This document shows, in pieces, positions 1,765-39,177 of a stretch of DNA of 43,504 nt. The DNA is from Chitinophaga pinensis (GTDB lineage Bacteria; Bacteroidota; Bacteroidia; UBA4408). The stretch spans positions 1 to 43,504 of the forward strand of contig CAMBZU010000022.1 in the NCBI GenBank assembly GCA_945872355.1. The letters are read 5' to 3'. Within the stretch, counting starts at the first letter, position 1; each line of letters starts with the position of its first letter. Both the position numbers and the translations under genes were made by a program. Under the pieces are notes generated by a model. That model was not told the origin of the DNA. It did no database searches and saw nothing but the letters and a program-made list of their open reading frames with translations.

Positions 1765-2523
1765 TTACCAAATTGCCCCTGGATGTGCTCTTTGCAGGTA
1801 TTGCATTTCGCACAGCAAATGGCCTAAATGCTCGGTGTGATTGCCTTTATAGCCGCCTTTGTACATGTGTTGATTGTGAATGACTGATAAATTTGCTGCG
1901 TTTAATATTTCGTTAACACTCAATAACCATGAGGTATGCAAGCTATTTAAATCAACTGCTATGCCTAATGAAATTAAAGCTTGGTCTGTGTCATTCATTT
2001 CAAACAAATCGGCTGTGTAGGGCCAAATTTCGTTCAGTGCAAATTGACTCCGATGTTGGCTCTCTTCGGTGCCATTGCCAAAGCGGATGATACATTCGCT
2101 GCTGTGACGGAAATGGTATTTTATTTCTTTAATGCCTTTTGTTGCAAGGGCGGCCAAGCGTTCATCCTGACTATGGGTTAACGCTCCTAACAATAGTTTT
2201 GCAAAAGCACTGTACAAAAATATTTTCATCATGCTTTGGGCAAAGTCGCCATTGGGTTGTTCCAGCAATAGGCAATTGAAGTACTGTCGCTCGCTGCGTG
2301 TAAAAGCAATTTCATCGCCACTGCGATTTTTTCCTTCCAATTCAGCGGCATAATTGTAATGGAATTCGGCTTGCCCCAGATAATCTAGAGCAAAATTTGT
2401 CATTGCTAAATCTTCTTCTAAAATAGGCCCATTGCTGCACCATTCAGCCAGGCGCTGTCCGGCAATGAGGTTATTGTCGGCAAGGCGCAAACAATAGTTA
2501 TATAAAGCTTTTTTTGTATTCAT
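1765..2523 (-). CDS. paaC: 1,2-phenylacetyl-CoA epoxidase subunit PaaC
   Basis: A 252-residue structural subunit of the phenylacetyl-CoA epoxidase (PaaABCE). It has the ferritin-like all-helical fold of PaaA but lacks a full set of diiron ligands, and it forms the heterodimer core with PaaA. Recognised from the N-terminal LADNNLIAGQRLAEWCSNGP, the DYLGQAEFHYNYAAEL helix and the C-terminal EMQYLQRAHPGAIW, which is diagnostic of PaaC. Length is normal for the family. It is the last gene of the minus-strand run, 12 bases after paaB. The usual downstream paaD and paaE do not follow: repeats and a convergent gene come next. Confidence 0.93.
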   Translation of the reverse strand: MNTKKALYNYCLRLADNNLIAGQRLAEWCSNGPILEEDLAMTNFALDYLGQAEFHYNYAAELEGKNRSGDEIAFTRSERQYFNCLLLEQPNGDFAQSMMKIFLYSAFAKLLLGALTHSQDERLAALATKGIKEIKYHFRHSSECIIRFGNGTEESQHRSQFALNEIWPYTADLFEMNDTDQALISLGIAVDLNSLHTSWLLSVNEILNAANLSVIHNQHMYKGGYKGNHTEHLGHLLCEMQYLQRAHPGAIW

Positions 2524-2535
2524 TTTGTTTAAATA

Positions 2536-2829
2536 TTACATGTTTTTAACGCCATCCGGAACTTTGTAAAAGCTAGGATGACGGTATACTTTATCATCGG
2601 CAGGGTCAAAAAATTCTGCTTCATCTTCGGTTTTGCTAGCTGCTATTTGATCAGATAAAACCACCCAAATGTTACGTCCTTCGCCTCTTCTTGTGTAAAT
2701 GTCGCGTGCGTTTTCAAGCGCCATATTTTTGTCGGATGCATGAATGCTGCCTGCGTGTTTGTGTGGAGTGCCACTTTTACTTTGTATAAATACTTCCCAT
2801 AGTGGAAGTTGATTATCTGTTGTGCTCAT
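2536..2829 (-). CDS. paaB: 1,2-phenylacetyl-CoA epoxidase subunit PaaB
   Basis: A 97-residue small subunit of phenylacetyl-CoA epoxidase. PLWEVFIQSKSGTPHKHAGS near the N-terminus, NARDIYTRRGEG in the middle and the C-terminal RHPSFYKVPDGVKNM are typical of PaaB. The protein is thought to bridge PaaAC units. It lies 10 bases after paaA and 12 before paaC, so the three are surely cotranscribed. Confidence 0.94.
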   Translation of the reverse strand: MSTTDNQLPLWEVFIQSKSGTPHKHAGSIHASDKNMALENARDIYTRRGEGRNIWVVLSDQIAASKTEDEAEFFDPADDKVYRHPSFYKVPDGVKNM

Positions 2830-2839
2830 GGTTTAATTA

Positions 2840-3793
2840 TTAATTGGTGAATAATGTTGCCTTATTTTTTTGTTGATTTTTAGAAAAGGCCAGAGCTGCT
2901 TCGCGCACCCATTTGCCTTGCTTGTGTACTTTGATGTGATGCGATAAACGTTTGTGATTGCAAGGCCCATTTCCACTGATCACTTGTTTAAATTCTTCCC
3001 AATCAATAGGACTTATTTCATATTGTTGGGTACTTTCGTTAAACTTCATATTTTTATCAGGCACTGTAAGGCCTATGAAATGCGCCTGATCAACTGTTTT
3101 GTCGATAAAGCGTTGACGCAACACATCGTTGCTTTCGCGTTTTATTTTCCATTGCATAGATTGTTTGGTGTGTGCCGATTCGTTATCGGGTGGTCCGAAC
3201 ATCATCAGAGAAGGCCACCACCAGCGGTTCATGGCATCTTGCGCCATTTCTTTTTGCTCTGCGGTTCCATTCATCATGGTCGTCATAATTTCATAGCCCT
3301 GGCGTTGATGAAATGATTCTTCTTTACAAATACGCACCATGGCTCTTGAGTAAGGACCATAGGAAGTTCTTTGCAAAGAAATTTGATTAACAATAGCTGC
3401 GCCATCAACTAACCAACCAATAGCTCCTATATCGGCCCAAGTGAGCGCAGGATAATTAAAAATACTGGAGTACTTTGCTTTGCCACTGTGCAGTTGTTCA
3501 ATCATTTCATCGCGGCTGATGCCAAGGGTTTCGGCAGCACTATAAAGATAAAGGCCATGCCCACCTTCGTCTTGAATTTTGGCCAGCAATATTTTTTTTG
3601 CGCGCAGGGAAGGAGCACGCAATACCCAATTTCCTTCGGGCTGCATGCCAATTACTTCGGAGTGTGCATGTTGTGAAAGTTGGCGTATCATTGTTTTGCG
3701 ATACTCATCGGGCATCCAATCTTTAGGCTCTATTTTTACTTCACTTTCAATGCAGGCATTAAAGTGATTTAATCTTTCTTCAGGTGTTTTCAT
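2840..3793 (-). CDS. paaA: 1,2-phenylacetyl-CoA epoxidase catalytic subunit PaaA
   Basis: A 317-residue catalytic diiron subunit that epoxidises the ring of phenylacetyl-CoA with O2. The ligand pairs are visible: DEGGH (E76, H79) and KEESFH (E159, H162), with E46 as a likely further ligand. [19 protein letters not shown] is strongly conserved in PaaA. Length is normal. It starts 98 bases after hppD on the same strand; whether it shares that transcript or has its own promoter cannot be decided. The reductase PaaE and maturation factor PaaD needed for activity are not in the window. Confidence 0.95.
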
Positions 3794-3891
3794 TTTGGTG
3801 TTTATTATGTTTACTTAGGGCTTTAAAAGGAGGTTTTAATTGCTTAAAGAAATTGAAGAAAAATGAAATTGATTTTTCTAACTGATTAAAT

Positions 3892-5046
3892 TTATAAGGT
3901 CCCTCTTCTGGCCTGCTCAGCTTCAATAGATTCAAATAAAGCTTGGAAGTTTCCTTTGCCGAATGATTTAGCGCCTTTGCGTTGAATGATTTCAAAGAAA
4001 AGTGTTGGACGGTCTTCAACAGGTTTTGTAAATATTTGCAGGAGATAACCTTCTTCATCTCTATCGACCATGATGCCCCATTTTTTGAGCACTTCTAAAT
4101 CTTCTTTGATGTTTCCTACACGTGCACCAACAGTATCATAATATGAACCTGGAACGTAAAGAAAATCAACACCTCTTTTTTTCATTTCTGAAACTGTAAA
4201 CACAATATCATCGGTAGCAACGGCAATATGCTGGCAACCTGCACCTTTATAAAAATCAAGGTATTCTTCTACTTGTGATTTCTTTTTACCAATAGCTGGT
4301 TCGTTTATCGGGAACTTGATATAACCATTTCCGTTGGTCATCACTTTACTCATCAAAGCTGTATATTCTGTAGAGATATCTTTATCATCGAAGGTTACTA
4401 AATTAGCAAAGCCCATCACATCAGCATAAAAACTAGCCCATTTATTCATCGCACCTAATTCAACATTGCCCACCATATGGTCAACATATTTTAAGCCACA
4501 AGTGCCCGGATTATATCCTGTATCAAGCTTTTGATAACCTGGTATAAAAACGCCATTGTAGTTTTTTCTTTCTATAAAATGATGCACTGTATCGCCATAG
4601 GTGTGAATACCGCTCATCACAATAGTACCATTTTCATCTTTCAATTCTTTTGGCTGCATAAATGGTTTGGCGCCTCTTTTAACGGTTTGTTCAAAAGCAT
4701 CGCGCGCATCATTCACCCATAAGGCAATTACTTTTACCCCATCGCCATGTTTTCTGAGGTGGTCTGCCATTTCACTCTCTGGATTAAAAGGTGTGGTAAG
4801 TACCAATCTGATTTTTCCTTGTTGCAATACGTAAGATGTACAATCTCTGGAACCTGTTTCTAATCCAGCGTAAGCTAAATCACTAAAGCCAAGAGCTGTT
4901 TTATAAAAATGTGCTGCTTGTTTGGCATTGCCTACATATAGCTCTACATAATCAGTACCTAAAATGGGTAAAAAGTCATCGGCAGCGTTGAATAATTTTT
5001 GAGTTTCGGAGTAGTTGAAATTCTCAACATTAACTAAGTCTTTCAT
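3892..5046 (-). CDS. hppD: 4-hydroxyphenylpyruvate dioxygenase
   Basis: A 384-residue Fe(II) dioxygenase converting 4-hydroxyphenylpyruvate to homogentisate in tyrosine breakdown. It has two vicinal-oxygen-chelate domains. The N-terminal domain starts around TDYVELYVGNAKQAAHFYKT. The C-terminal catalytic domain has iron ligands H190 (KYVDHMV), H273 (GCQHIAV) and E352 (LFFEIIQRKGA). The tail ends AEQARRGTL as usual. It lies 34 bases downstream of hmgA, which uses its product, so the two form an operon. A 92-codon reading frame at 3780-4058 overlapping its 3' end is out of frame and not a gene. Confidence 0.96.
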   Translation of the reverse strand: MKDLVNVENFNYSETQKLFNAADDFLPILGTDYVELYVGNAKQAAHFYKTALGFSDLAYAGLETGSRDCTSYVLQQGKIRLVLTTPFNPESEMADHLRKHGDGVKVIALWVNDARDAFEQTVKRGAKPFMQPKELKDENGTIVMSGIHTYGDTVHHFIERKNYNGVFIPGYQKLDTGYNPGTCGLKYVDHMVGNVELGAMNKWASFYADVMGFANLVTFDDKDISTEYTALMSKVMTNGNGYIKFPINEPAIGKKKSQVEEYLDFYKGAGCQHIAVATDDIVFTVSEMKKRGVDFLYVPGSYYDTVGARVGNIKEDLEVLKKWGIMVDRDEEGYLLQIFTKPVEDRPTLFFEIIQRKGAKSFGKGNFQALFESIEAEQARRGTL

Positions 5047-5080
5047 TGTTTTTTATTTTTATGATTTAATTTAAATAGGC

Positions 5081-6235
5081 TTATTCAAGCCATGATTTAT
5101 AATAGTCTTTTACTTCAATATTTAAAGCTTCTTCGGTTACCATTACTGGATTAAAAGGATCAATCATTACTGCTAATTCCTTTGTTTCTTTTTGCCCAAT
5201 ACTTCTTTCAATAGCACCTGGATGTGGGCCGTGTGGAATACCTGCAGGATGTAAGGTAATTTGTCCGGATTGAATGTTGTTGCGGCTCATAAAATCACCA
5301 TCTACATAATACAACAACTCATCACTATCGATATTACTATGATGATAAGGTGCAGGAATAGCATCGGGATGATAATCATACATGCGCGGCACAAAAGAAC
5401 AAATCACAAAATTTCTACATTCAAAAGTTTGATGAATAGGAGGGGGCATGTGAATGCGCCCTGTGATAGGCTCAAAGTTAAAAATAGAAAATGTGTATGG
5501 ATAATGATAGCCATCCCAACCAACGACATCAAAAGGATGATTGTCGTAAACGTATGGAAAAATAAAGCCTTTCTTTTTGATATTGATATCGAATTCACCT
5601 TTTAAATCGTAAGTTTTAAGGTTAGTTGGTTTGATGATATCGCGTTCGCAGAAGGGAGAATGTTCTAGCAATTGACCAAATTCATTGCGATATCTTTTAG
5701 GTGTATAAATAGGTTCAAAAGATTCAATTAAAAGCAATAAATTTTCACTTGTTTTGAATTCAATTTTATAAACGGTGCCTCTTGGGATCATAATGTAATC
5801 GCCATATTTAAAGAAGAGCTCACCATACATTGTTTCTAAACGACCTTCCCCTTTGTGCACAAAAATGAGCTCATCGGCATCGGCATTTTTAAAGAAGTAA
5901 TCGGGCGAGTATTGCGGTGCTGCCAAACCTATTTGCATAAAACTATTTACAAATAATATTTTACGACTTTTGATGTAATCGGCTTCAGGCTTAATGTTGA
6001 AGCCTTTAAAGCTCATTGCATCTAAACCATTTTCAACAGCAATTTTTGGTGCTATGGCGTATGCTTTGTTTTTTTGCTTTACACGTGTTGGTGGATAAAG
6101 ATGATAAACCAACGACGACATGCCGCCAAAACCTTGGGTGCCTACAAGTTCTTCTTGCAATAGATCTCCGTTTGTATGGCGCACAACTACGTGTCTTTTT
6201 GGTGGAACAGTTCCTTGTGAATGATAGATAGGCAT
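5081..6235 (-). CDS. hmgA: Homogentisate 1,2-dioxygenase
   Basis: A 384-residue cupin-fold Fe(II) ring-cleavage dioxygenase that opens homogentisate to maleylacetoacetate. Seen: ADADELIFVHKGEGRLE in the N-terminal cupin, GWDGYHYPYTFSIFNFEP, and the metal-site region PYHHSNIDSDELLYYVDGDF followed by LHPAGIPHGPHPG. It is shorter than the human enzyme and matches the compact bacterial type. It is the first gene of the hmgA-hppD(-paaABC) run; two palindromes lie 47-82 bases upstream. Maleylacetoacetate isomerase and fumarylacetoacetase are not in the window. Confidence 0.95.
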   Translation of the reverse strand: MPIYHSQGTVPPKRHVVVRHTNGDLLQEELVGTQGFGGMSSLVYHLYPPTRVKQKNKAYAIAPKIAVENGLDAMSFKGFNIKPEADYIKSRKILFVNSFMQIGLAAPQYSPDYFFKNADADELIFVHKGEGRLETMYGELFFKYGDYIMIPRGTVYKIEFKTSENLLLLIESFEPIYTPKRYRNEFGQLLEHSPFCERDIIKPTNLKTYDLKGEFDINIKKKGFIFPYVYDNHPFDVVGWDGYHYPYTFSIFNFEPITGRIHMPPPIHQTFECRNFVICSFVPRMYDYHPDAIPAPYHHSNIDSDELLYYVDGDFMSRNNIQSGQITLHPAGIPHGPHPGAIERSIGQKETKELAVMIDPFNPVMVTEEALNIEVKDYYKSWLE

Positions 6236-6947: not shown

Positions 6948-7550
6948 TTAAACCTTCATTTTTCTAAAAGTTAAATTAATACGTGCTGCTTCCACTTTAG
7001 CCATGGCTGGTAATTGATGTTGCCAATGTTGTTGGATAGTGCCTTGCATGAGCAATAAACTGCCATGCGCCAAGTTTAGGCTGATGGTTGTTTTGCTTTT
7101 ATTATGCCTAAATATAAATTTTCTTTCGGCTCCAAAGCTCATAGAGGCTATGCAAGCTTTGTCTTCGAGCTCGCTTTCATTGTCGCTGTGCCAGCCCATA
7201 CTTTCCTTACCATGATGGTATAAATTGAGCAAACAGGTATTAAAATTTTGTTCACTTTTTTCTTCCACGATTTGCTTTAGCTCCAGCAATTCGGGTGTCC
7301 AAATAAGCGCGTGCTTGGTTTGTTTTGAATAGGTGTATGTAAAAGCCTGATTAGCATACAAAGCAACTTTTCTGTTGGTAACAATTTTTTTTCCAAACAT
7401 TATTACTTCATCATTTTTCCAGTCGATTTTTTGGGTGAGTAATTGCTGCCAATGGTTTGCATCTGCGCTAGAGAATATAGGTCCAAAATAGTATAGCTCA
7501 CCATCAAAGGGCAATAGATTTTGTGTTGGATCAGCTGGAAATAAGGACAT
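6948..7550 (-). CDS. alkB: AlkB-family 2-oxoglutarate/Fe(II) dioxygenase
   Basis: A 200-residue member of the AlkB group, which removes alkyl groups from nucleic acid bases by oxidation. Metal ligands H121 and D123 (GWHSDNESE) and H178 (QHWQHQLP), and the 2-oxoglutarate-binding RINLTFR (R190, R196), are all present. The N-terminus LLPFDGELYYFGPIF fits the usual family start, so the ATG at 7550 is right. That ATG directly abuts the 406-bp heptanucleotide array, leaving no ordinary Shine-Dalgarno sequence. Whether the substrate is DNA, RNA or something else cannot be told. Confidence 0.92.
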   Translation of the reverse strand: MSLFPADPTQNLLPFDGELYYFGPIFSSADANHWQQLLTQKIDWKNDEVIMFGKKIVTNRKVALYANQAFTYTYSKQTKHALIWTPELLELKQIVEEKSEQNFNTCLLNLYHHGKESMGWHSDNESELEDKACIASMSFGAERKFIFRHNKSKTTISLNLAHGSLLLMQGTIQQHWQHQLPAMAKVEAARINLTFRKMKV

Positions 7551-7956
7551 GAATTATGAATTGTGAATTATGAATTGTGAATTTTGAATTGTGAATTATG
7601 AATTTTGAATTGTGAATTATGAATTATGAGTTGTGAATTATGAATTGTGAATTATGGATTTTGAATTATGAATTGTGAATTTTGAATTTTGAATTATGAA
7701 TTTTGAATTATGGATTTTGAATTATGAATTGTGAATTATGAATTATGAGTTTTGAATTGTGAATTATGAATTTTGAGTTGTGAATTATGAGTTGTGAATT
7801 ATGAGTTTTGAATTATGAATTTTGAGTTGTGAATTATGAATTATGAATTATGAATTGTGAATTTTGAGTTGTGAGTTGTGAATTATGAATTATGAGTTGT
7901 GAATTATGAATTGTGAATTATGAATTGTGAATTTTGAGTTGTCAATTATGAATTGT
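7551..7956. repeat. Heptanucleotide tandem array, 58 units
   Basis: 406 bp made of exactly 58 consecutive 7-mers with no insertion or deletion. The unit is GAATTNT, where N is A, G or T and never C. Variants are GAGTTNT and two GGATTTT; one unit near the end begins with C. On the minus strand the units read ATAATTC, ACAATTC and AAAATTC and run straight into the alkB start codon. Every frame holds stops, so it is not coding. It fills the whole 5' region of alkB and leaves 76 bases to the ctlX stop. Confidence 0.97.
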
Positions 7957-8032
7957 TTTTGAATTATTGATAAATGCAAACCAACTTTTTTTCATCCGTT
8001 TTGTAACATTATAAAAGGCCATTTTTAATTGC

Positions 8033-8920
8033 TTAAAACAATTCTGCCATCATACAGCGCACGCTGCCGCCACCAATTTTTTCGATGCTTGGTATTGCTA
8101 TAGTTATAATTTGATGATGTTTTTTTAGGGCATTTAATTGTACCACATTAAGCGCATCAAATGCTGTAAATGACATTACCAGTGCATTGTTATTTTGGCT
8201 GTTTTTTAAACACAGCATGTTGCCTGCAAATTTTTCAAGTTGTTGTATACTAATTTCAATCACTTCTTTTTTGCTTTGCGCGAAGGATTGCAACAGTTTT
8301 TCTTGATCTGCTTTTGGAATAACATCTAAACAAATGATAAGGTTTTTAGGCGTTATAGCCATCACCACATTGGTATGATAAATGGGCTGCTGCGCTCTGT
8401 CCAAAGCATGAAAAGGAATTACTTTAAGTCCTGTTTTTTCTTCAAAAATAGTTAAGGCGGCTAGGCATGTTCTCGGTGATATTGTAGCATAGGCAATGTT
8501 AAAGTCATGATCAATGACCAAACTTCCCGTGCCTTCTAAATATAAATTTTGGGTTTCTAAATAACTTAAGTCAATTAACTTTTTTGAATTGTTACACACC
8601 TGCTCAATAATGTCGTTACGCCTTTCTATACGTCTGTTATGGTGCAACATGGGGTACAAAATACATGTGCCATTTGTATGCGTGCTGAACCAATTATTGG
8701 GAAAAATAGCATCAGGTTTTTTGGGTGAAAAGGTGTCATCAATAACCAACACATCAATACCATGTTGTTGTAATTTTTGCACCATATTATCAAATTCAAC
8801 CAAGGCATTTTGTGCTTCGCCATTTGTTTCATAATGCTGAAAGCTATTTGTTAGCGCTGTTTCGGCATTGTAACCAAATGCTGCCGGTTTTATCATTAAT
8901 ATTTTGTTGCTAGGCCACAT
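8033..8920 (-). CDS. ctlX: CtlX-type amidinotransferase-fold hydrolase
   Basis: A 295-residue member of the guanidine-modifying enzyme superfamily, related to dimethylargininase and arginine deiminase. Family features seen: ILMIKPAAFGYNAETALTNS at the start, DAIFPNNWFSTH (substrate-binding acid and N), YHTNVVM (catalytic His) and SVRCMMAE (catalytic Cys near the C-terminus). In the CtlX group the role assigned is use of citrulline; the exact substrate is uncertain. Its ATG overlaps the maf stop by one base (TAATG), so translation is probably coupled. Confidence 0.88.
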   Translation of the reverse strand: MWPSNKILMIKPAAFGYNAETALTNSFQHYETNGEAQNALVEFDNMVQKLQQHGIDVLVIDDTFSPKKPDAIFPNNWFSTHTNGTCILYPMLHHNRRIERRNDIIEQVCNNSKKLIDLSYLETQNLYLEGTGSLVIDHDFNIAYATISPRTCLAALTIFEEKTGLKVIPFHALDRAQQPIYHTNVVMAITPKNLIICLDVIPKADQEKLLQSFAQSKKEVIEISIQQLEKFAGNMLCLKNSQNNNALVMSFTAFDALNVVQLNALKKHHQIITIAIPSIEKIGGGSVRCMMAELF

Positions 8921-9498
8921 TAAAAATCTTTTAAGTGTTCGTATAATTCTTTTACGGGTAAACCCATCACATTAAAATAACTTCCTTCGAAACGTTCCAC
9001 TGCAATTAATCCAATCCAATCTTGCGCGCCATAAGCACCTGCTTTGTCGTATGGTTTATAATTGGTTACATAATATTCAATTTCCTCTTGTGTTAATGTT
9101 TTAAAATAAACGACTGTTTTTACAAAAAAGGACACTTGTTTTTTATGAGATGTGATACTTACGCCTGTATAAACTTCATGCTTATTTCCCGAGAGTTCAG
9201 TTAACATGCTGCAAGCTTCTTGAAAATCTTTTGGCTTATTAAGTGCTTTATTATTGAGCCAAACAATGGTATCTGCTGTAATTAATATTTGCTTAAGCCC
9301 TATTTGTTTTAATAAGTGGCCTGCTTTTAATTGCGATAAAAATAAAGGTATTTCTTGAGCTTTTAATTCATCTGAAAAATGTTCTTCAATATCGGCTGTT
9401 ACTGTATCAAATTGAAATCCTACTTCTTTTAACAAGGCCTGTCGGCGAGGTGAGGCAGATCCTAAAACTAAATTTGTAATGACAATATTTGGGAGCAT
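8920..9498 (-). CDS. maf: Maf-like nucleoside triphosphate pyrophosphatase
   Basis: A 192-residue house-cleaning pyrophosphatase, probably of the dTTP/UTP (YhdE) type. Motifs: LVLGSASPRRQALL at the N-terminus, ITADTIVW with the catalytic Asp, YDKAGAYGAQ and FEGSYFNVMGLPV. The frame is open further upstream to 9543, but those 15 codons overlap ubiA and precede the conserved start; ATG at 9498, one base after the ubiA stop, fits. It sits between ubiA and ctlX with almost no spacing. Confidence 0.92.
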   Translation of the reverse strand: MLPNIVITNLVLGSASPRRQALLKEVGFQFDTVTADIEEHFSDELKAQEIPLFLSQLKAGHLLKQIGLKQILITADTIVWLNNKALNKPKDFQEACSMLTELSGNKHEVYTGVSITSHKKQVSFFVKTVVYFKTLTQEEIEYYVTNYKPYDKAGAYGAQDWIGLIAVERFEGSYFNVMGLPVKELYEHLKDF

Positions 9499-9499
9499 A

Positions 9500-10459
9500 T
9501 TAATAAAGTAATAAGTAATAATATAAGGCACTATATACAACACCTAAAAGCATAATCACTTTTAAAGTACGGCTGGCTTTATGGTAATCACTGGGATTAT
9601 CGGCTTTTTTAATTTGATATAATAAGATGCTAAAACTTGTTTGAAAGCATATGCCAAAATATATAACCGAGGTTAAATCTAATGAAGCTAACTGTTTTAT
9701 TTGAACCAATAAGAGCAACAACATTTCAACCACCACCAAGGCATAAACAATTTTTTTTGTAGGGCTAATTCCTAAAACAATTGGAATGGTTTTGCACCCA
9801 AATTGTCTATCACCAAAATGATCTTCCATGTCTTTTACAATTTCTCTAATTAAACTTGTTAAGAATGCAAAGCCAGCATATGTAGTAACAAACAGTAAAA
9901 TATGATTGAAGTTTAAACCACTATAAAGCATTATTGTTTTATACTTAGAAACCAACACAGGCAACTCATACAACACAACAATCATAGGCACCATGGCTGT
10001 GAGGAAGGCAATAACAATATTGCCAATCAACAGTTGCTTTTTAAAATCTGTTGAGTAAAACCACAATAAGCCTGTGCTTAATAAATGTATAAATCCCAGT
10101 TTAATTAATCCTACACGGTAGCCTACATAAAAACCTAATGCAACGCCAATAATATTGATTACAGTATGCAGTAACATGGCTTGCCTTCTGCTGATTGATT
10201 TACCAACCACCACTTTGTTTGGTTTGTTAAAGGTATCTATTCTGGTATCAAAGTAATCGTTAATAATATAGCCTGCCGAGGCAATACATAAGGTAGAAAA
10301 ACTAAGTAAGAAAAAATTAAAGTTACTCAGCTGAAGTATGATGCCTAAATTCATAAACTTAAGCATTCCATTAATTAGAAGGTACCTAATACAGTATTGT
10401 GTAAAAGCAATAATCAGTATGTTTTTCCAACGTATTAACCTTAATATTCCAGCTATCAT
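9500..10459 (-). CDS. UbiA-family prenyltransferase (geranylgeranylglycerol-phosphate geranylgeranyltransferase-like)
   Basis: A 319-residue integral membrane protein with about eight to nine hydrophobic helices. Both aspartate-rich motifs of the UbiA family are visible: NDYFDTRIDTFNKPN in the first half and IREIVKDMEDHFGD in the second. These bind Mg-diphosphate of the prenyl donor. Bacteroidota proteins of this type next to maf are usually named geranylgeranylglycerol-phosphate geranylgeranyltransferase; the acceptor is not provable from sequence. It is first in the ubiA-maf-ctlX run. Confidence 0.85.
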   Translation of the reverse strand: MIAGILRLIRWKNILIIAFTQYCIRYLLINGMLKFMNLGIILQLSNFNFFLLSFSTLCIASAGYIINDYFDTRIDTFNKPNKVVVGKSISRRQAMLLHTVINIIGVALGFYVGYRVGLIKLGFIHLLSTGLLWFYSTDFKKQLLIGNIVIAFLTAMVPMIVVLYELPVLVSKYKTIMLYSGLNFNHILLFVTTYAGFAFLTSLIREIVKDMEDHFGDRQFGCKTIPIVLGISPTKKIVYALVVVEMLLLLLVQIKQLASLDLTSVIYFGICFQTSFSILLYQIKKADNPSDYHKASRTLKVIMLLGVVYSALYYYLLLY

Positions 10460-38427: not shown

Positions 38428-39177
38428 ATTTATTTATTTAATTGTTTATAGAATTATTTTGTTTGTTCTGGTTTTTAAAATAGGAGCAAATTCATTTTAT
38501 AAAGGCGCCAAATTAACATTTAATTGCATTCAATAGCTACTAATTGAATAAATCTTTTTTGATCAAAAATCTCAGTTTCGTAAATTAAAATCACATCTTT
38601 TCTTCTCCGAAATTATAAACCGATCCCGCTAATGCCTCTGTAAATCTGCTAACAATTGTGCAAATTTAATTTTTTTTTACCAAATACAACTATTTTGCAC
38701 ATAATAATAAACGCTTTGTCCAAGGTTGGCGTCCCCGCCACCCTTGCATTTGTCCAAGGTTGGCATCCTCGCCACCCTTTCATTTAGTTTACATTGTTGT
38801 GCTTGGTAACTTTTTTTGGAACGCTGCCAGTGTGTTTGAGCCTACAAAAACCATGTTTGGCGATGATACCAATCAATTACAAAAACTATATTTGCTTTTG
38901 GTAATATATGGGCTAAAGGATTTTTCATTTTTTTGTCTAGATAGTAGGTTTTTTCAGCGCGAAGGCTAATTATAAACTCCAATTTACGCCAATAGTATTC
39001 GGCTGTTAAAACAGACTTATCCTTTTCTCTTTATTTTTTAATCACACAGAACCGTTAATAAAGTCAAAAATTGATAGCCTAGTTAAAATATGTGTCTATA
39101 AAATAGTTTAATTAAAAGATTTAATATCTGTATTTATCGATATTTATTTGATTTGTATACTTTTAAAATTATTTTTT
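38428..39177. other. 750-bp gene-free region
   Basis: No supportable gene. The 69-codon plus-strand frame at 38760-38969 starts inside the tandem repeat and has no family features. The notable content is the pair of tandem hairpins at 38715-38782. Confidence 0.5.
38715..38782. repeat. Two tandem 34-bp hairpin repeats
   Basis: Copies 38715-38748 and 38749-38782 both read TTTGTCCAAGGTTGGC...CGCCACCCTT and differ at 4-5 positions. Each can fold as AAGGTTGGCG/CGCCACCCTT around a 4-base loop (one mismatch). They are GC-rich compared with the surroundings, so they stand out as an inserted or structured element. Confidence 0.8.

Follow-up and report, generated by a model that had tools for sequence, protein, structure and literature searches.

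A 58-unit heptanucleotide array at the start codon of an alkB-like gene, and the placement of its relatives at gene edges in Bacteroidota

Our analysis of a 43,504-nt stretch of DNA (the window) describes an array of heptanucleotides that directly adjoins the start codon of an alkB-like gene. We consider it probable that this array is a lineage-specific satellite, a member of a widespread intergenic family with the unit GARTTDT that turns over through slippage or unequal exchange, within limits set by coding sequence. In kind it represents a known type of bacterial repeat in a long, AT-rich form; the interesting part is its polar placement, as in most of the places where such arrays are found the GARTTNT strand points outward from the closest gene edge.

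The array and the DDAH-alkB junction

The array occupies positions 7551-7956 of the window, with the consensus GAATTNT on the plus strand and ANAATTC on the alkB-sense strand. Unit-by-unit division fills this interval with 58 exact heptamers and zero internal indels, as the initial annotation had claimed: 24 GAATTAT, 12 GAATTGT, 9 GAATTTT, 8 GAGTTGT, 2 GGATTTT, 2 GAGTTTT and 1 CAATTAT. Positions 4, 5 and 7 are invariant across the 58 units, and position 6 is A in 25, G in 20, T in 13 and C in none. The same annotation had limited variation to positions 2 or 3 and position 6, the latter never C; the second part of this description stands for the array, but unit 57 (CAATTAT, 7943-7949, plus strand) is changed at position 1, the sole unit to be so. 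Likewise, the claimed freedom from frame slips applies inside 7551-7956 and not beyond, where TTTT is followed by another GAATTAT (7961-7967) that is 4 nt out of phase. The strict phase of the array holds within the chosen limits only, and hinges on how its edge is defined. TRF gives the array a score of 555, with a best period of 14, then 21, against 121 for the next tandem repeat in the window; TRF also reports a 34-bp unit with a C-rich consensus at 38715-38785 (2.1 copies, 91% alike). Read on the alkB-sense strand, the array contains 187 A, 129 T, 89 C and a single G; ATG and GTG are absent and TTG occurs once. The units on the other strand (GAATTNT, GAGTTNT and GGATTTT) are without any run of three G.

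The gene to the left encodes an alkB-like 2OG-Fe(II) oxygenase of 200 aa (6948-7550, minus strand; PF13532, E=5.6e-35), and the complement of its ATG at 7548-7550 touches the first unit of the array. This contact, which had also been claimed, is real: the start at 7550 is fixed because the first 17 residues align, gap-free and each from its own ATG, with those of AlkB from the congener G001 (MSVHKSIRTNNIIPFEG against MSLFPADPTQNLLPFDG). Upstream of alkB lie a DDAH-type gene (dimethylarginine dimethylaminohydrolase family; 8033-8920, minus strand; PF19420, E=3.7e-95) and, upstream of this, maf (8920-9543, minus strand; PF02545). The array accounts for 406 of the 482 nt in the alkB-DDAH spacer and lies 0 nt from alkB as opposed to 76 nt from the DDAH-type gene; the remaining spacer (7957-8032) begins with the TTTT and the out-of-phase unit and continues as unrelated sequence. 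A search of the spacer for Rfam families gave zero matches. Further along the minus strand, genes at 1765-6235 resemble, as judged by eye from their translations, a phenylacetate/tyrosine degradation cluster (PaaA/B/C-like, 4-hydroxyphenylpyruvate and homogentisate dioxygenase-like).

The DDAH-type gene and alkB are neighbours in G001 as well (identity 60% for DDAH and 53% for AlkB), with only 2 nt between stop and start (TAA-CT-ATG). Because of this 2-nt gap, we place the array within what would be a tight operon junction. Either the junction was invaded in the lineage of the window or it was cleared in that of G001, two histories that this one comparison, between AlkB proteins 53% identical, does not tell apart; the ancestral operon junction is more likely to have been the compact one.

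Related arrays in the genome and phylum, and their orientation

A BLAST-type search is unsuitable for so simple an array, and exact patterns were therefore used. Within the 3.4-Mb draft genome (133 contigs), where arrays were counted by pattern search plus a 400-kb sample, three-unit matches occur at 10 loci including the window, and the reversed pattern gives none. The search for other GAATTNT arrays that the initial annotation had proposed thus yielded nine further loci, all beside other genes. The ten loci are unlinked and, as far as genes are called, all intergenic; with their head-to-tail 7-nt units at many unlinked intergenic sites they have the features of heptameric SSRs/STRRs. The sister arrays range from 3 to about 20 units, and several of them bear indels or related units (GAATGCT, GTAAATT, TGAATTATT). 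A 400-kb sample of the source genome, taken without selection, contained no period-7 array.

Among 395 Bacteroidota genomes, 30 contain at least five exact GARTTDT units, and these span 20 of 171 genera; a reversed control pattern of the same composition gave about 7. When position 6 was left open in a class-level sample, C-bearing units (GAATTCT) appeared at two loci only, and C fills this position in 4 of the 452 units of other arrays, so that the absence of C is a strong bias and no rule, and a special constraint is rejected. On the G strand the unit reads as ATG, GTG or TTG together with TGA, but a translational reason for the bias was dropped, since about half of the arrays have the G strand antisense. 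In stretches sampled from two genomes chosen as carriers of GARTTDT arrays (G276 and G355), enrichment is confined to period 7 and twice that length, represented by many different units, with 8 and 14 period-7 clusters against 0-1.

The placement of these arrays with respect to genes is asymmetric. With genes taken from a longest-ORF caller, the gene 5' of the GARTTNT strand is the nearer one in 46 of 55 arrays when ATG starts are considered (p=4e-7) and in 49 of 54 when ATG, GTG and TTG are admitted (p=4e-10), p-values that are optimistic because arrays of one genome or of related genomes are non-independent; a codon-model caller, which missed alkB, gave a weaker asymmetry (36/51, p=0.005). 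Convergent neighbours are found around 18-19 arrays and divergent ones around 2, and roughly one array in two lies behind a stop codon. In convergent pairs the 5' gene is nearer in 16 of 19 cases (ATG starts; medians 12 vs 95 nt), or 17 of 18 with all starts, and this asymmetry does not arise from uncertain starts, because two stop codons flank such arrays. Genes co-directional with the G strand follow the same pattern throughout (11/11 with ATG starts, medians -2 vs 182; 12/12 with all starts). For genes opposite to the G strand the counts are 18/23 (medians 13 vs 60, ATG starts) and 18/22 (all starts), and this class is the weakest evidence of polarity, because a start codon forms its 5' edge and a longest-ORF caller is biased towards short distances. 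The initial annotation had held that a scatter of identical arrays unrelated to genes would refute a regulatory role; the arrays are indeed scattered, but they hug gene edges, and in one orientation. Other heptamers, in small samples, have the 5' gene nearer in 5 of 7 arrays (TTGADTA) and 2 of 8 (GGTDCTT), and polarity as a rule for all heptamers is unsupported.

A second period-7 array is present in 22 of 49 right flanks; 18 of these have the inverted base bias (C>G) and 2 have the same bias (G>C). Two intergenic spacers of G276 (L206:13724-13885 and L204:16285-16380) are heptamer-phased imperfect palindromes, the former spanning gene end to gene end. At L198 and L175 (G276:C1:about 390154) a palindromic element (CCGTGGTTGAAACCACGG) separates a GARTTDT array from an inverted one; L201 contains pieces like GGTTGAAACC and L184 a related one, and the element may be a small mobile one targeted to spacers of this kind. 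At several loci (L168, L171, L180, L187, L237 and L241-L244) the adjacent gene ends with a stop codon inside, or at, the array's first unit, for the most part the TGA of a repeat, as if gene 3' ends had been eroded by the arrays.

Comparison with known heptamer repeats

Dispersed repeats with the units GGGAATC and GGGGA(C/T)T, described in Xanthomonas and Nostoc, share the period of 7 and a mostly intergenic position, and comprise 2-26 units with degenerate positions (PMC4692102). The window array belongs to another phylum and, with 58 units, exceeds the reported 26. For GGGAATC in Xanthomonas the 5' ORF lies at a mean of 28 nt and the downstream ORF at 160 nt, 70 inverted pairs were recorded against 186 repeats in one strain, and convergent locations (16%) outnumber divergent ones (8%) (PMC4692102). 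GARTTDT arrays are alike in all three respects, with a nearer 5' neighbour, frequent inverted pairs and more convergent than divergent surroundings. At the level of the single locus, the window array shares the nearer ORF on the 5' side of its G strand; the inverted partner, a feature of the family (18 inverted among 49 flanks), is missing from its 76-nt right flank. The two kinds differ in the G-runs of their units: GGGAATC and GGGGA(C/T)T units form G-quadruplexes and have been discussed in these terms (PMC4692102), whereas GARTTDT units have at most two adjacent G, and the window array has no quadruplex-capable G-tracts. The placement common to both kinds cannot, therefore, depend on quadruplexes.

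The TAACTGA repeats are also intergenic with a period of 7, and in Beggiatoaceae are commonest immediately upstream of start codons; they are mostly of 2-6 units, and reach 43 copies in certain Bacteroidetes and cyanobacteria (PMC4679880). The window array shows this type of placement, in that it adjoins the alkB ATG with a G-poor, C-bearing sense strand towards the start and its G strand outward. The outward-reading unit of the TAACTGA repeats, TCAGTTA, resembles GAGTTAT, although neither TAACTGA nor TCAGTTA is among the 58 units. Sites past stop codons are a minority for TAACTGA and about half for GARTTNT. According to the account in PMC4692102 of Mrazek (2007) and of reports on Calothrix, period 7 is in excess among longer bacterial repeats, for which polymerase slippage was proposed. 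The AT-rich GARTTNT family and its polar placement were not found in the literature open to search.

This comparison bears on why a 7-nt unit should be favoured and why it should take one orientation at gene edges, for which quadruplexes are the obvious suspect in the G-rich kinds. Arrays free of G-runs, with the same placement in another phylum, remove quadruplexes as a general cause; what remains is growth in a polar manner, or selection acting on the sequence that runs into a start codon. Locally, the window array illustrates that an array can sit between two genes of an operon, destroying neither.

Turnover, alternative readings and a model of array growth

The order of units within the array points to copying in two-unit steps. 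GAATTAT occupies 17 of 29 odd but 7 of 29 even positions, and an even-minus-odd lag identity of 0.091 (permutation p=0.004) gives a dimer period of 14 nt; a higher-order period of 14 nt is seen too in L169, L171 and L175. This alternation supports the suggestion in the initial annotation of rapid turnover by unit exchange, a turnover that we read from the unit pattern alone. Adjacent identical units are not in excess (lag-1 identity z=-2.5), and a recent block duplication was rejected, since repeated longer unit words are not in excess and no recent large duplication is evident. Many of the 46 letters by which the array departs from GAATTAT are probably copies of one change. The initial annotation had taken the absence of indels as a sign of constraint; this is weak evidence, as sister arrays in the genome do have indels. 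In bacteria, substitutions generally outnumber indels several-fold. Moreover, substitution-rich arrays are the ones seen, because a draft assembly crosses long arrays only if their units differ. A pure array of such length would break a short-read assembly, and that of the window can be resolved because its longest internal exact repeat is 47 nt.

This last property makes it extremely unlikely that the array is an assembly artefact or that its units were miscounted: although the draft consists of 133 contigs and some arrays lie near contig ends (C80), words longer than 47 nt place the units unambiguously, and like arrays are present on very long contigs elsewhere (for example in G355 and G451). 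It is also very unlikely that the arrays form intergenic hairpins of a terminator-like or cruciform type, a G-type array making one arm and a C-type array the other. The inverted partners in 18 of 49 right flanks, the whole-spacer palindrome of L206, the array hairpin of L204 and the inverted pairs of Xanthomonas (PMC4692102) would fit such a role; however, most partners differ in unit, giving poor complementarity, and the window array stands without a partner in its right flank. Its RNA fold has z=+3.1 and is less structured than 100 of 100 shuffles, and RNA or DNA structure in the array was rejected, as neither strand folds better than shuffles. The curvature from AATT tracts that had been proposed finds no support either, the 7-bp spacing being out of helical phase (coherence 0.04 at 10.5 bp).

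That the array serves as a cis-regulatory element of alkB, through binding sites spaced by 7 bp or as a length-dependent rheostat of expression, we regard as quite improbable, despite its exact contact with the start codon and a precedent in Helicobacter pylori, where repeat length can tune a neighbouring gene, that of a sialic acid binding adhesin (PMC4081817). None of some 90 relatives of alkB, drawn from 60 related genomes and GTDB contigs, is preceded by a 7-nt array (at L069 an array of GAGTTAT lies about 1.6 kb downstream of the gene), the G001 junction measures 2 nt, and the same arrays adjoin unrelated genes, nine loci in this genome among them, often past stop codons. These observations led us to reject an alkB-linked element and leave unsupported the maintained function for alkB that the initial annotation had envisaged. 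An array of promoters was likewise rejected: the 40 sigma-70-like matches, where 16 are expected, arise from one consensus match repeated, and the Bacteroidota-type pattern TTTG-N-TANNTTTG is unmatched in the spacer. The primary sigma factor of Bacteroidota uses a consensus other than the sigma-70-like one. A genome-wide post-transcriptional system, in which a protein would bind heptamers in the leaders and 3' ends of many mRNAs, is improbable on our reading, though such protein-bound mRNA heptamers were proposed for the TAACTGA repeats of Beggiatoaceae (PMC4679880). In its favour, the arrays lie close to start codons in a single orientation, like the majority of TAACTGA repeats, and the reverse complement of TAACTGA (TCAGTTA, rotated CAGTTAT) is one base off GAGTTAT; however, with about half of the arrays following stops, where the opposite strand is in the mRNA, one protein would have to read both strands, and the arrays come without a conserved gene set or known binder.

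We therefore return to the reading of the array as a satellite held in check by coding sequence, for which our data suggest the following model. The array would lengthen and turn over by one or two units (7 or 14 nt) at a time via slippage or unequal exchange, and its left edge would halt at the alkB ATG, where coding sequence cannot be overwritten. Its orientation may persist upstream of alkB because, if flipped, the array would present a start codon (ATG, GTG or TTG) at every seventh base ahead of the true start. The resulting long leader, nearly G-free, with almost no start codons and unstructured, would be tolerated, and alkB would be expected to be uncoupled from the DDAH gene; length-dependent expression of alkB is possible but not indicated.

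Selection against intrusion into genes accounts for the sharp edge of the arrays but not for the choice of the 5' edge of the G strand, and the avoidance of start codons is inapplicable to arrays past stop codons, which are also G-outward. We tentatively raise a further possibility, which we think rather unlikely: that growth in Bacteroidota, as in Xanthomonas, is directional, new 7-nt units joining the array at the 5' terminus of its G strand (the 3' terminus of the complement) until they meet coding sequence, in a process driven by period and strand asymmetry and not by G-quadruplexes. A homogeneity gradient along the arrays, used as a test of polar growth, gave no signal (left half purer in 6, right half in 5, tie in 22). 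If true, directional growth would explain why unlike arrays in different phyla hug the gene on their 5' side, and would cover pre-start and post-stop arrays alike.

Two other layouts were noted among the repeats of these genomes. In one genome, 8-9-mers like TGATTAGC / TGATGGGG (in the other orientation CTAATCAGC) make up composite arrays at L153:18807-19069 (G000:C2:85307-85569) and L155:3299-3362 (G000:C3). At L208:11589-12339 (G355), several arrays of TTCATAA/TTCATAC heptamers lie inside longer direct repeats about 170-280 nt apart, a layout suggesting nested duplication.
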